From assembly GCA_947507155.1 (NCBI GenBank), contig CANNOC010000007.1, positions 1 through 64,000 on the forward strand: 64,000 bases of DNA, in the 5' to 3' direction. This DNA is from an uncultured Collinsella sp. GTDB taxonomy: Bacteria > Actinomycetota > Coriobacteriia > Coriobacteriales > Coriobacteriaceae. The notes beneath the pieces are model-generated. The model searched no databases and was not told the DNA's origin. It worked only from the letters and a program-made list of their open reading frames with translations. Positions 8,836 to 28,397 of this stretch are shown here, piece after piece. Each line of letters begins with the position of its first letter. Position 1 is the first letter of the stretch. The position numbers and the translations under genes were made by a program.

Positions 8836-8844
8836 TGCTATAGT
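8836..8844 (+). promoter_or_regulatory. Extended -10 promoter of the tryptophan leader
   Basis: TGCTATAGT matches an extended -10 (TGnTATAAT), 59 nt before the leader-peptide start. No good -35 is present at 17 nt, as expected for an extended -10. Confidence 0.55.
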
Positions 8845-8902
8845 GCAGCGCAACAGCAACGAGGTGCGACCGCGCCAAGGCATCACGAAAGGAGCCACCA
8901 AG

Positions 8903-8971
8903 ATGATGAACACGATGAAGTCCCTCAACAACTGGTGGTGGCGTGATGCGAATACGATCGGTCGACAGTGA
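8903..8971 (+). CDS. Tryptophan leader peptide
   Basis: 22 codons with the central run LNNWWWRD encoded by three consecutive TGG codons. Tryptophan is rare, so a WWW run in a tiny ORF is the hallmark of a trp attenuator. AAAGGAG (8888-8894) precedes ATG at a suitable distance. A terminator follows 38 nt after its stop and a TrpP-like transporter gene lies downstream. Ribosome stalling at the Trp codons when Trp-tRNA is short should prevent formation of the terminator hairpin. Confidence 0.85.
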   Translation: MMNTMKSLNNWWWRDANTIGRQ

Positions 8972-9008
8972 GTCCCTCACGCCTGTTTTTGCGCTCTAGG
9001 TGATTGGA

Positions 9009-9040
9009 AGGCCTCCGGTTTCGACCGGGGGCCTTTTTCT
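9009..9040 (+). terminator. Attenuator terminator of the Trp-transport operon
   Basis: AGGCCTCCGGT (9009-9019) pairs with ACCGGGGGCCT (9024-9034) around a TTCG loop and is followed by TTTTTCT. It lies between the WWW leader peptide and the transporter genes. A short GTGAG/CTCAC hairpin overlapping the leader stop (about 8968-8980) could act as a pause structure. The competing antiterminator was not resolved by eye. Confidence 0.85.
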
Positions 9041-9117
9041 ATCTCGAGCCCGATCGCGTTCGCATCACGCGCCTCCGCTTTCTTCTCTTGTACTTCCCTT
9101 CCGAAAGGATTTTCACC

Positions 9118-9690
9118 ATGTCTCAGAACACAACCACCGCACAGCCCCGCACCGTCCAGACCGCCGACCGCGGCAAACTCGACGTCCGCGCCCTCGTCTT
9201 GCTCGCCATCCTGCTTGCCGCCGGCTTCATCCTCAACTTCACCGTCGGCAAGGCAATCTCGGGCATCTCGGGCGGTATGATCAGCCCCGAGTTCATCATC
9301 TCGGCATTCTGCCTCACCATCCTGGTCGTTCGTCCCAACATTGGCCAGGCGCTCGTCATTGGTCTCATCTCGGCGGCCGTGATCCAGATCACTACCACCT
9401 CGCCGTTTGTCGATTTTGCCGCCGAGGGCATCGCCGCTATGCTCATGGCCGTCATTGTCAACGCTGCCGCCAAGGACGGCCAGGTTAAGCCCGTCGTCGC
9501 CATCGCCGCAACATTCGTGACCACCTTTGTCTCGGGCGTCATCTTCATGGTCATCAAGATGGCCATGCTCGGCGTTGTGGGCGAGCTCGCCGCAGCCATG
9601 CTGCCCGTCGTCGCCATGACCGCCGTATTTAACGCCATTCTGGTCGGCGCCCTCTACCTGCCCATCCAGAAGGCCCTTAAGCTCAACTAA
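9118..9690 (+). CDS. trpP: TrpP-like tryptophan-specific S component of an ECF transporter
   Basis: 190 aa with five to six hydrophobic segments after a polar N-terminus. GGMISPEF followed by RPNIGQALVIGLISA and a C-terminal YLPIQKAL resemble the layout of the TrpP/YhaG tryptophan transporter family. ECF ATPase and EcfT genes follow. The upstream leader with three Trp codons independently identifies tryptophan as the likely substrate. GAAAGGA precedes ATG. It should bind tryptophan in the membrane and use the downstream energising module. Substrate is inferred from family and attenuator together. Confidence 0.8.
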   Translation: MSQNTTTAQPRTVQTADRGKLDVRALVLLAILLAAGFILNFTVGKAISGISGGMISPEFIISAFCLTILVVRPNIGQALVIGLISAAVIQITTTSPFVDFAAEGIAAMLMAVIVNAAAKDGQVKPVVAIAATFVTTFVSGVIFMVIKMAMLGVVGELAAAMLPVVAMTAVFNAILVGALYLPIQKALKLN

Positions 9691-9696
9691 CCTGCT

Positions 9697-9797
9697 CGGC
9701 TTTACGAGCCACCCCATCTTGGCGTTCATTCGTCGCTCGCGTACCCAAGTACGCTTCGCTCCTCTTTCGCGCCAACCTGGGGCACCTCGTAAAGCCG
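9697..9797 (+). repeat. Post-stop structured element, copy 1 (sense to trpP)
   Basis: Arms CGGCTTTACGAG (9697-9708) and CTCGTAAAGCCG (9786-9797) are perfectly complementary. They enclose a core with CCCCATCTTG, CGTTCA, CGTCGCTCGCGTACC, AAGTACGC, CGCTCCTCTTTC and CAACCTGGGG. The same core occurs after dapH (32212-32353) and, on the minus strand, after ettA (41971-42110). It starts 7 nt after the trpP stop, in sense orientation. A folded 3' untranslated RNA or a small mobile palindrome is possible. Confidence 0.75.
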
Positions 9798-9842
9798 TTT
9801 CCGTGCTTCACCACCAAAGACTGTCCCAAACAACGAGCTTTT

Positions 9843-9882
9843 GGGGACGTTCCTAAACGACTTGTCATGTAAGAACGTCCCC
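9843..9882 (+). other. 10-bp hairpin between trpP and the ECF ATPase gene
   Basis: GGGGACGTTC (9843-9852) pairs perfectly with GAACGTCCCC (9873-9882). No T-run follows and the ATPase start lies 20 nt later. It could be an intra-operon processing or mRNA-stability site that sets subunit ratio, or a REP-like remnant. Confidence 0.6.
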
Positions 9883-9902
9883 AATGACTATGAAAGGTAT
9901 CC

Positions 9903-11654
9903 ATGGAAACGATCATCAACGTCGACGATGTCTCGTTCTCCTATGGCACGCAAACCGAGCAGGCGCTCAGCCACGTTTCGCTCAGCGTGAACAAGGGAGA
10001 TTTCATCGGCATCATCGGGCCCTCGGGCGCCGGTAAGTCCACACTTGCCGCCTGTCTGTCGGGCGCCGTGCCTCACCACTACACCGGCGCCTTTTATGGC
10101 TCCGTGTTAGTTGACGGCCACGACACCTGCGAGGTCTCGCTCACCGACATATCGCAGATCGTCGGTAGCGTGCTGCAAGACATTGACACGCAGATGGTCG
10201 CTTCGGTCGTTGAGGATGAGATGCTCTTTGGTCTCGAGAACTTTGGCGTTCCGCACGACCAGATCGAGCAGCACGTGAGCGAGACGCTTAAGACCGTCGG
10301 CATTAGCGACCTGCGCGACCGCGAGATCGCCACCCTCTCGGGCGGTCAAAAGCAAAAGGTAGCTATCGCCGCCATCCTCGCCATGCGTCCGCGCGTCTTA
10401 GTGCTCGATGAGCCAACCGCAGCACTCGACCCCGCCAGTTCCACCTTGGTCTTCGAGACGCTGCGCGAGGCAAACCGCGCGCTCGGCATCACCATCGTCG
10501 TCGTTGAGCAAAAGGTCGCTCTGCTTTCGGAGTACTGCAACCGTGTGTTGGTGCTCGATCACGGCCAGATCGCGCTGCAAGGTGAGCCGCACGAGGTCTT
10601 CGCACGCACCGACGAGCTTCGCACCATCGGCGTCGATTGTCCGCGCGTCACGCGCATCTTCAACAGTCTCGAGGCCGATGGCTTGGTAAGCGGCACGCCC
10701 TGTCTGGATGTCGACGAGGCAGAACGCCTGATCACGGAAATCGTCGACCCCGACCGTGCGACAAGCGATACCCAGGCGCCCGCAGGCTCCCCGCACGCGC
10801 CGTCGCTGCGCCCGCATGCGAAAGACACCGAGCCGGTGCTCACCTTTGACCATGTCGAGTTTTCTTACCCCCATGGAGGCGCCGCCGTCCACGACCTCAA
10901 CTTGACGCTCTACCCCGGCGAGCTCGTGGGCATTGTCGGCCAAAACGGAGCCGGCAAAACCACGCTCACCAAACTGCTCACGGGTTTGCTCAAGCCCGCA
11001 TCGGGCAGCGTACGCGTTACGGGCTTGGACACGGCATCGGTTCCCACGAGCCGCATCGCACACGAAGTGGCAACGCTTTTCCAGAACCCCGACCGCCAAA
11101 TCTGCAAAGACACCGTGTTCGACGAGGTCGCCTTTGGTCTAGAACTTGCCGGCATCGACCGCGCCGAAGCCCTGCGTCGCGCCCAGCTGGTCATCGACCG
11201 CTTTGGTCTGCCCGCCGACGAGGCACCGTTCTCACTGTCGCGCGGCCAACGCCAGATGGTGGCGCTGGCCTCCGTTGTGGTGATCGAGCCCAAGATCGTG
11301 GTGCTCGACGAACCCACGAGCGGCCTGGACTACCGCGAGTGCATGACCGTGATGGAAACGGTGCGCACCATGGCAGAGCGCGGTTGCGCCGTCATCATGG
11401 TCTGTCACGACATGGAAGTCGTTTCCGACTTTGCCGAGCGCATCGTGGTGATGGCCAACGGTCGCATCCTCGACCGCGGCCGCACGCACGAGCTGTTCTC
11501 GAACATCGAACTCATGCAGCGTGCCTACGTTGAGCCGCCCCAGGTCATCGAACTCTCGCGCCGTCTGGCATCCACCGTCTCGCCCGCCTTTACGCAGGTG
11601 AGTGAGGTCACTGATATCGTTCGCATTACCGAGGAGATGGTCCGCCGTGGTTAA
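9903..11654 (+). CDS. Fused double ATP-binding protein of the ECF transporter (EcfA-EcfA')
   Basis: 583 aa with two complete ABC domains in one chain. Domain 1 has Walker A GPSGAGKST (39-47), LSGGQKQK and LVLDEPTAALD. Domain 2 (from about residue 300) has Walker A GQNGAGKTT (about 345), the signature LSRGQRQM and VVLDEPTSGLD. Most ECF systems use two separate ATPases; here they are fused. The protein hydrolyses ATP on the cytoplasmic face to drive tryptophan uptake with TrpP and EcfT. The downstream ecfT start overlaps its stop. Confidence 0.92.
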   Translation: METIINVDDVSFSYGTQTEQALSHVSLSVNKGDFIGIIGPSGAGKSTLAACLSGAVPHHYTGAFYGSVLVDGHDTCEVSLTDISQIVGSVLQDIDTQMVASVVEDEMLFGLENFGVPHDQIEQHVSETLKTVGISDLRDREIATLSGGQKQKVAIAAILAMRPRVLVLDEPTAALDPASSTLVFETLREANRALGITIVVVEQKVALLSEYCNRVLVLDHGQIALQGEPHEVFARTDELRTIGVDCPRVTRIFNSLEADGLVSGTPCLDVDEAERLITEIVDPDRATSDTQAPAGSPHAPSLRPHAKDTEPVLTFDHVEFSYPHGGAAVHDLNLTLYPGELVGIVGQNGAGKTTLTKLLTGLLKPASGSVRVTGLDTASVPTSRIAHEVATLFQNPDRQICKDTVFDEVAFGLELAGIDRAEALRRAQLVIDRFGLPADEAPFSLSRGQRQMVALASVVVIEPKIVVLDEPTSGLDYRECMTVMETVRTMAERGCAVIMVCHDMEVVSDFAERIVVMANGRILDRGRTHELFSNIELMQRAYVEPPQVIELSRRLASTVSPAFTQVSEVTDIVRITEEMVRRG

Positions 11655-12393
11655 CGTCATCGACTACATGCCGGGCGACACGCTGCTACACCGCCTGAAC
11701 CCCGTCATCAAACTGGGCCTCGCCGCCGCCATCATCATCGGCATTTTCTTGTCCGACACCTATGTGGCACTGCTGGGCTTTCTGGCACTCACGCTCGCGC
11801 TGGGAGCCTACGCCGGCGTCGTCGACCGCCTGCTCGCTCTGCTCAAGCTACTGATTCCACTCGCGCTCATCATGCTGGTGCTGCAGCTGGCTTTTATGCG
11901 CGATGGCAACGTGGTGTGGAGCTTTGTCACCGATGAAGGCCTCATCACCGGAACAAAGGCCTGTCTGCGTCTGCTGGGCGTGGCGCTACCGCTTATTCTG
12001 ATGCTCATGGTGACCAAGCTCAACGACCTTGCCAACGCCTGCGTCGAGGTGCTGCACGTTCCGTATCGTTACGCCTTCACCTTTACCACGGCGCTGCGCT
12101 TTGTGCCAGTGTTTGGCCAGGAGATGAACGCCATCATGGAGGCGCAGACCGCACGCGGCATCGAGTATGACACCAAGAACCCCATCAAGAAGCTCAAGCT
12201 CATGCTGCCGCTGTGCGTGCCGCTACTGATCTCGAGCGTGGGTAAAACCGATGCCACGGCCCTGGCAGCCGAGCAGCGCGGCTTCTACCTGCGCACGCGC
12301 GCGAGCTCGTACAAGCGCTACCCCATCAAGGGCCTGGACATTGCCATACTTATTGTCAGCATTGCCCTCATCGTCCTCGGCTTCCTGTTTTAA
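11647..12393 (+). CDS. ecfT: ECF transporter transmembrane component EcfT
   Basis: 248 aa, starting at a GTG that overlaps the ATPase stop by 8 nt, with GAGGAGA eight bases upstream. The start DYMPGDTLLHRLNPVIKLGL is typical of the CbiQ/EcfT family. Several membrane helices follow, and the coupling region includes EAQTARGIEYD and ALAAEQRGFYLRTRAS. It links the ATPases to TrpP. The overlap implies translational coupling. Together with trpP and the fused ATPase it forms a self-contained Group I ECF transporter. Confidence 0.9.
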   Translation: MVNVIDYMPGDTLLHRLNPVIKLGLAAAIIIGIFLSDTYVALLGFLALTLALGAYAGVVDRLLALLKLLIPLALIMLVLQLAFMRDGNVVWSFVTDEGLITGTKACLRLLGVALPLILMLMVTKLNDLANACVEVLHVPYRYAFTFTTALRFVPVFGQEMNAIMEAQTARGIEYDTKNPIKKLKLMLPLCVPLLISSVGKTDATALAAEQRGFYLRTRASSYKRYPIKGLDIAILIVSIALIVLGFLF

Positions 12394-28028: not shown

Positions 28029-28177
28029 AAAGGATCCTTTCATGGGGCATTTCCATTCACACAATATTGTGATGCAAAATTGTGACGCCCTTGTTTCTAG
28101 CATATCCCTGCATTTTTTAAACGTTATATACGAATACTCTTGTTTGGTAAAGTGCAACGTGGTAGGGTCGTTACCAC

Positions 28178-28316
28178 TTGATAGAGGCGCGGGCACGAAG
28201 AACCGCGGGCGAGCCGGCAGGCTTTGACCCCGTGGGGAGGCGAAACCCGCCGAACTGGGCTTTTCGGGCACGAACAACCTGGTGGGCCTACGGGAAACAC
28301 CCGCAGGACTGTCTGC
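28178..28316 (+). promoter_or_regulatory. Lysine riboswitch (L box)
   Basis: Conserved L-box elements occur in order: GATAGAGGCGCG (28180-28191), GAAGA, GGGGAGGCGAAACCCGCCGAA (about 28234-28254, positions only approximate), CTGGGCTTTTCGGGC, and GGACTGTC closing P1 with GATAG. Free lysine should switch off the downstream lysA-dapA-dapB-dapH genes. A GTGGTA/TACCAC hairpin lies directly upstream (28159-28177). Confidence 0.88.
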
Positions 28317-28329
28317 AGCAATGCGGGAG

Positions 28330-28397
28330 CGCTATCCGGACATTGGGTCCACGCTATGCGGATTCGATGCGCAGATGGCGCCGTCTGGATAGCGAGG
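28330..28397 (+). promoter_or_regulatory. Expression platform of the lysine riboswitch
   Basis: CGCTATCCGGAC (28330-28341) pairs with GTCTGGATAGCG (28383-28394). The second arm runs into the ribosome site GAGG (28394-28397). No T-run follows, so control is more likely at translation than at termination. Alternative pairing with the P1 3' strand was not worked out. With the riboswitch this fills the 379-nt gap between the M20 gene and lysA. Confidence 0.55.

Follow-up and report, generated by a model that had tools for sequence, protein, structure and literature searches.

In the window, by which we mean the whole analysed stretch of 64,000 nucleotides from an uncultured Collinsella sp., a short leader very probably works by ribosome-mediated attenuation of transcription: it would sense charged tRNA-Trp and thereby control an ECF importer for tryptophan in a bacterium auxotrophic for this amino acid. 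We see here a familiar mechanism applied to an unusual target, and in addition a conserved RNA element, so far unexplained, that follows the terminator. The leader, the terminator, the covariation between regions 1 and 2, the conserved operon, the missing tryptophan synthesis genes and the tryptophan-poor importer are all computed observations; with the conservation of the leader among relatives and the predicted T-boxes on orthologues, they speak in favour of the earlier note, which had proposed a tryptophan attenuator on a dedicated ECF transporter. The features are collected in Table 1.

E. coli trpL has a short UGG leader, alternative hairpins and a GC-rich terminator with a T-run. The same layout, with two or three UGG codons, characterizes the trp attenuators of Corynebacterium and Streptomyces trp operons in the available part of PMC1262725, and the window leader resembles them. 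Unlike the classical trp attenuators, the window leader controls an importer in an auxotroph, its proposed antiterminator strand extends over the final codons of the leader and its stop codon, and it carries an extra complement beyond the terminator and gives no Rfam match at the gathering threshold. Attenuator targets are mostly biosynthesis enzymes (PMC3766115, accessible portion), and the word 'transporter' is absent from the accessible text of PMC1262725 on trp attenuators and the LEU element. A search of the open-licence literature, a scope outside which most subscription journals fall, returned no description of this leader.

Table 1. Positions of the leader, its RNA elements and the importer genes in the window
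Feature	Position	Strand	Details and basis
Extended -10 promoter element TGCTATAGT	8836-8844	+	Sequence; motif upstream of relatives' leaders
Leader Shine-Dalgarno AAAGGAG	8888-8894	+	Sequence; SD-like motif in 104/114 leaders
Leader peptide ORF MMNTMKSLNNWWWRDANTIGRQ*	8903-8971	+	22 codons; sequence, conserved peptides
Three Trp regulatory codons TGGTGGTGG	8933-8941	+	Sequence; conserved in relatives
Region 1, 5' arm of protector hairpin, also in long-range helix	8940-8946	+	GGCGTGA, W3-R-D codons; complementarity, covariation
Proposed antiterminator strand (last leader codons, stop, following bases)	8957-8978	+	Inferred; duplex with terminator 5' arm and loop
Region 2, 3' arm of protector hairpin	8977-8983	+	TCACGCC; complementarity, covariation
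Intrinsic terminator, stem 9008-9019/9024-9035 plus T-run	9008-9040	+	Sequence, folding, arm covariation
Region 5, segment after the terminator, complement of leader codons 8941-8961	9050-9070	+	21 nt, 90%
TrpP-like ECF S component	9118-9690	+	190 aa, no Trp residue; Pfam TrpP profile, structure model
Fused ECF ATPase EcfA-EcfA (EcfAA)	9903-11654	+	583 aa, no Trp residue; TIGR04520 over cut-off
EcfT transmembrane component	11647-12393	+	248 aa, one Trp; Pfam CbiQ over cut-off

The leader and the operon it precedes

The 22-codon leader with three consecutive TGG codons reported in the earlier note is present, with its Shine-Dalgarno sequence. Because TGGTGGTGG occurs 36 times in the window's own genome, the triplet alone proves little, and we compared the locus among relatives, whose families are labelled f1 (the window's own), f2, f3, f4 and f5. 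The S component is present in 63 of 65 f1 genomes, and 62 of these 63 loci form the f1 set, the omitted one (G033) being a 21-residue match at a contig edge. A TGG-triplet leader stands upstream of the S gene in 59 of the 62; of the other three, L038 lies at a contig edge, L039 has two Trp codons in its leader and L060 encodes W-A-W, and a covariance-model match at G040:C8 suggests that the leader of L038 sits on another contig. Sampled across the class, 203 of 396 genomes hold the S component, and a further set of 67 loci (L097-L163) yielded 55 with both a TGGTGGTGG leader and a terminator. Of the 12 loci that depart from this pattern, L144 has a two-Trp leader, no leader was seen at L150, L163 and L151, L159 lies at a contig edge, and seven belong to f3. 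With these counts, the presence of the leader in this position is not chance. The leader peptides are conserved as NWWWR(D/N)...G(R/Q), and the motif TGNTATA[A/G]T is found 5' of 56/114 leaders versus 0.2% in shuffles; a consensus sigma-70 scan requiring both hexamers returned no promoter at the window leader. On either side of the leader Shine-Dalgarno sequence, GCATCACG (8880-8887) and GCCACCA (8894-8900) are complementary to the WWWRD codons, and self-control of leader initiation is possible.

Profile searches bear out the earlier assignment of a TrpP-like S component, a fused ECF ATPase and EcfT downstream of the leader, with the qualification that the window's own S component, taken alone, scores below threshold against Pfam TrpP (PF17099; E 8.2e-5, 22.9 bits, cut-off 27.2). 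The same profile is matched at E 0.01 or better by 28 of the 34 members of the S-component alignment, the best at 5.7e-13. An AlphaFold2 model of the S component has six helices (pLDDT 85.5), and its best Foldseek matches are ThiT, RibU and FolT with probabilities of 0.95-0.99, TM scores of about 0.5-0.7 and E values of 0.07 or weaker, the Foldseek search giving no match at E 0.001 or better; the modelled fold supports an S component, not the identity of its ligand. B. subtilis TrpP (YhaG), a member of the same Pfam family, imports tryptophan according to the accessible part of PMC13170310, as is predicted here for the window protein, and was one of six S proteins tested in the work of PMC11487621, as far as its available text goes.

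EcfAA and EcfT lie 3' of the S gene in 24 of the 25 loci checked (L038-L062), the remaining one (L061) being on a contig that ends there. The own genome has a second ECF module elsewhere (L219 1-1500, G000:C10), so calling the present module 'dedicated' is reasonable; the S gene of the second module is preceded by a sequence that we take to resemble an FMN riboswitch. Several genomes (L010, L011, L022, L023, L024, L026, L028, L030 and others) have, next to the first S component, another with about 45% identity. Between the S gene and the EcfAA gene lie two large inverted repeats (9697-9797 and 9841-9884), with arms of 28 nt (82%) and a near-palindrome of 21 nt, TTGGGGACGTTC..., which are possibly mobile or REP-like elements.

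Tryptophan as signal and probable cargo

Tryptophan is probably both the signal and the cargo. Seven diverged f3 orthologues of the S gene (39-44% identity) are preceded by putative T-box leaders (RF00230, E 3e-15 to 2e-5, all below the gathering score). The specifier reads UGG in the three best alignments (L156, L158, L153), in L160 and L161 an identical UGG-UUCGCC string is shifted by one position in the alignment as printed, and UGG was assigned from sequence only for L154 and L162. T-box leaders likewise sense Trp-tRNA charging, here in front of an orthologue from a different family within the class, and bind the tRNA without a leader peptide, whereas the window leader uses one; orthologues of one importer would therefore be governed by a leader peptide in some families and by a T-box in another. 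The B. subtilis trpP gene differs from both, being regulated by TRAP at the ribosome site (PMC13170310, accessible part).

Searches of the own genome gave no TrpB over cut-off and no match to the TrpC (PF00218) or TrpB2 (TIGR01415) profile. Among f1 genomes, TrpB exceeded the cut-off in 1/64 (G023), compared with 13/14 in the control set. The importer is itself poor in tryptophan. Over 129 loci the S components contain 2 W in 24,030 residues, and the reference for the window, 48 ORFs called by length and third-position GC, has 168 W in 17,983 residues (0.93%). The own operon has one Trp in 1,021 residues against 9.5 expected (P 7e-4), and the relatives have 5 in 14,572 residues of EcfAA (25 loci) and 4 in 5,837 of EcfT (24 loci). 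The low tryptophan content of the ATPases and EcfT is partly ordinary, since the second ECF module, which serves as a within-genome control, is also low (3 Trp in 634 residues of its ATPase, 1 in 266 of its EcfT); the S component is the striking case of W-avoidance. At the level of sequence, the T-boxes on orthologues, the missing synthesis genes, the W-avoidance and the related WWW leaders before TrpB2-like and NSS-transporter genes described below give independent support for tryptophan. The earlier note held that regulation alone identified the substrate; tryptophan is still favoured, but regulation is no longer the only argument. Several independent lines would thus assign tryptophan to an ECF importer in a bacterial family that mostly lacks TrpB.

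A covariance model of the leader found matches in 100/246 class genomes, with one in the own genome, and we read 20 stretches around selected matches, the weaker matches being sampled in part. WWW leaders precede TrpB2-like genes in eight loci (L207-L214; 5/5 proteins tested over the TIGR01415 cut-off) and NSS-family transporters in six (L200-L205; 3/3 tested over the NF037979 cut-off). The nearest solved relative of the NSS proteins is 4us3, which we take to be the tryptophan-binding MhsT. The match at L216 is not convincing and has no WWW. The NSS proteins under related leaders contain 8-9 Trp in about 445 residues, which is no avoidance, and the TrpB2-like proteins 2 each; since the NSS proteins do not avoid tryptophan, avoidance is no rule of the whole regulon. 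The matches uncover a putative tryptophan-attenuator regulon of import and TrpB2-like genes. Elsewhere in the window, positions 28174-28342 (plus strand) hold a lysine riboswitch aptamer (RF00168, 69.1 bits).

Attenuation by a Trp leader could be real and the cargo be a Trp-related compound, such as indole, kynurenine or a Trp peptide, instead of tryptophan. The regulation reports only Trp-tRNA charging, and related WWW leaders also precede TrpB2-like genes, whose enzymes could use indole. We consider this unlikely. Imported indole would be useless in the own genome because TrpB and TrpB2 are both absent from it, most of the aligned S components (28/34) match the TrpP family, and deletion of B. 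subtilis trpP raises resistance to 5-fluorotryptophan in the available part of PMC13170310.

Protector hairpin, terminator and proposed antiterminator

In the terminator arms, 11 of the 12 pairs are Watson-Crick and one is G-U, followed by TTTTTCTAT; of the perfect GC stem and T-run described earlier, the GC-rich stem and the T-run stand but the perfection does not. Alignment A1, made by sequence alone, contains 64 leaders that remained of 114 after removal of redundancy at 93% similarity. The 7-bp helix of regions 1 and 2 is paired in 82.3% of cells of A1, with 29 two-sided compensatory changes, a count as high in 0/500 shuffles, and the pairing is destroyed when the partner is slid. Cis duplexes are better than permuted ones over all 64 leaders (0/2000, z -4.8) and outside f1 (0/2000), and are not significantly so within f1 alone (577/2000). 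The protector hairpin, which overlaps the regulatory codons, therefore covaries, as an attenuator calls for.

The strand GGTC[G/A]A...TGAGTC at the leader end is complementary to the terminator 5' arm, the loop and the first bases of the 3' arm. In A1, 91.4% of cells pair in its 6-bp core, with 5 two-sided changes, a count that 7/500 shuffles reach, and in leaders before TrpB2-like genes the core is mostly GGATTA versus TAATCC or a variant, a concerted change on both sides. The antiterminator duplex ranks within the best 5 of 100 shuffles in 48/114 leaders and within the best 5 of 200 in 10 of 17 extra related leaders. Its mean duplex energy is -18.2 kcal/mol versus -20.6 for the hairpin. Cis pairing beats permuted pairing significantly only outside f1 (12/2000), the comparisons over all 64 leaders (367/2000) and within f1 (323/2000) being not significant. 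Folding of the leader had been proposed in the earlier note as a way to find the antiterminator; equilibrium folding with the ribosome at W kept the terminator in most of the cases listed, and among these only L048 and L062 switched. We think it likely that an antiterminator exists, and co-transcriptional order may favour it.

The proposed switch would work as follows. When tryptophan is plentiful, the ribosome would reach the leader stop and cover the strand GGTCGACAGTGAGTCC, and the terminator would form. Without leader translation, region 1 (the WWWRD codons) would pair with region 2 and lock GGTCGACAGTGAGTCC away, leading again to termination. When tryptophan is scarce, a ribosome stalled on WWW would mask region 1, and the freed strand would pair with the 5' arm and loop of the terminator, allowing trpP-ecfAA-ecfT to be transcribed. 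The stalling itself, like the antiterminator and tryptophan as cargo, is a step that we infer.

The leader ORF might instead act at the level of translation or through Rho, the intrinsic terminator not being the switch. Most of the equilibrium folds listed favour the predicted terminator over the antiterminator, and pairing of a codon run with a downstream Shine-Dalgarno sequence is known for the LEU element (PMC1262725, accessible part). Against this, a hairpin with a T-run lies 3' of the leader in 114/114 TGG-triplet leaders examined, and the modelled accessibility of the trpP Shine-Dalgarno sequence is alike with region 1 free (0.48) and masked by a stalled ribosome (0.45; 28 of 29 leaders scored). 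This makes control at translation or by Rho distinctly unlikely, and transcription attenuation remains the reading that we prefer.

A conserved complement beyond the terminator

In the full-length mRNA, region 1 could also pair with the conserved region 5, a complement that the earlier note had overlooked. Folding of the full leader places the region 1:5 helix within the minimum-energy structure (z -5.6). The duplex is matched by at most 5 of 100 dinucleotide shuffles in 49 of the 59 f1 leaders (mean z -3.67), versus only 4 of 55 leaders outside f1 (mean z -0.29), which form a built-in negative control; one of those four is L098, an f1-type leader in an f3-labelled genome. For covariation, we aligned 34 sequences without structure (33 f1 and L098) and picked the pair columns from the window's own sequence. 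Pairing occupies 91.4% of cells with 17 two-sided changes (0/500 shuffles), falls to 9-67% when the partners are shifted by 1-3 columns, and is better in cis than in permuted duplexes (z -7.5, 0/2000). Where the codons have diverged, region 5 has diverged to match (L056, L057, L059, L033, L036, L050, L041, L048).

The distance of region 5 from the T-run varies among leaders. The element is missing or unclear in L042, L045 and L046, and takes a short form directly after the T-run in L052 and L062; in L048, L052 and L062 a sequence-only alignment (A2) puts it in the wrong place. By plain letter shuffles it is also present in 4 of 17 further leaders, before trpP (L199, L206) and NSS genes (L203, L204), and the L199 pairing is about 20 bp long in a sequence unlike that of f1.

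Region 5 is a conserved RNA element that the textbook attenuator model leaves unaccounted for and that a specialist would not expect; it is directly testable. Because terminated RNA lacks region 5, the element cannot decide the termination of its own transcript, which points to a role after termination. Tentatively, in the absence of a ribosome stalled on the leader codons, region 5 may close them or tag the mRNA for degradation. The region 1:5 helix might, with similar reserve, be a second control layer, confined to read-through mRNA, that signals whether the Trp codons are still occupied by a stalled ribosome, such that on the return of tryptophan the long helix would shut the leader or trigger cleavage of the importer mRNA; the element would, as part of this reading, have evolved or been retained with more than one type of gene (trpP-ECF and the NSS transporter). 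If so, one leader would control both the making and the keeping of the importer message.

Other roles were considered and rejected. In the models, region 5 does not sequester the trpP Shine-Dalgarno sequence, as the accessibility given above is unchanged. The LEU element of actinobacterial leuA is similar in that its run of regulatory codons pairs with a far-downstream segment, and differs in that this partner is the leuA Shine-Dalgarno sequence (PMC1262725, accessible part), whereas here the partner lies between terminator and Shine-Dalgarno sequence. Region 5 is not a genome-wide motif: the own genome has only its own exact site, and four sites at two mismatches are the control rate. Action of the terminated leader on region 5 in trans (compare rnTrpL of S. 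meliloti) was set aside because the same mRNA holds region 5's own partner, and a role for Rho because stalled ribosomes would expose region 5 and so lower expression in starvation. A reading in which region 5 forms no RNA helix, being instead the second half-site of a DNA operator or an inverted repeat that arose by chance, is very improbable. In its favour, a dimeric protein could bind to the two inverted motif copies, and the motif shows partial sequence conservation. Against it, region 5 varies together with the leader codons from genus to genus and also where the sequence context is unrelated, its cis pairing outperforms every permutation, it is missing from most non-f1 leaders, and the own genome has no other exact copy and no excess at two mismatches.

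At L049 (G021) the leader and region 5 are near-identical to those of the window and the S protein is only about 58-60% identical, so that the coding gene seems to have been replaced beneath a conserved leader. At L098 (G267), in the genome labelled f3, the S component is 79% identical, which suggests horizontal transfer or contamination.
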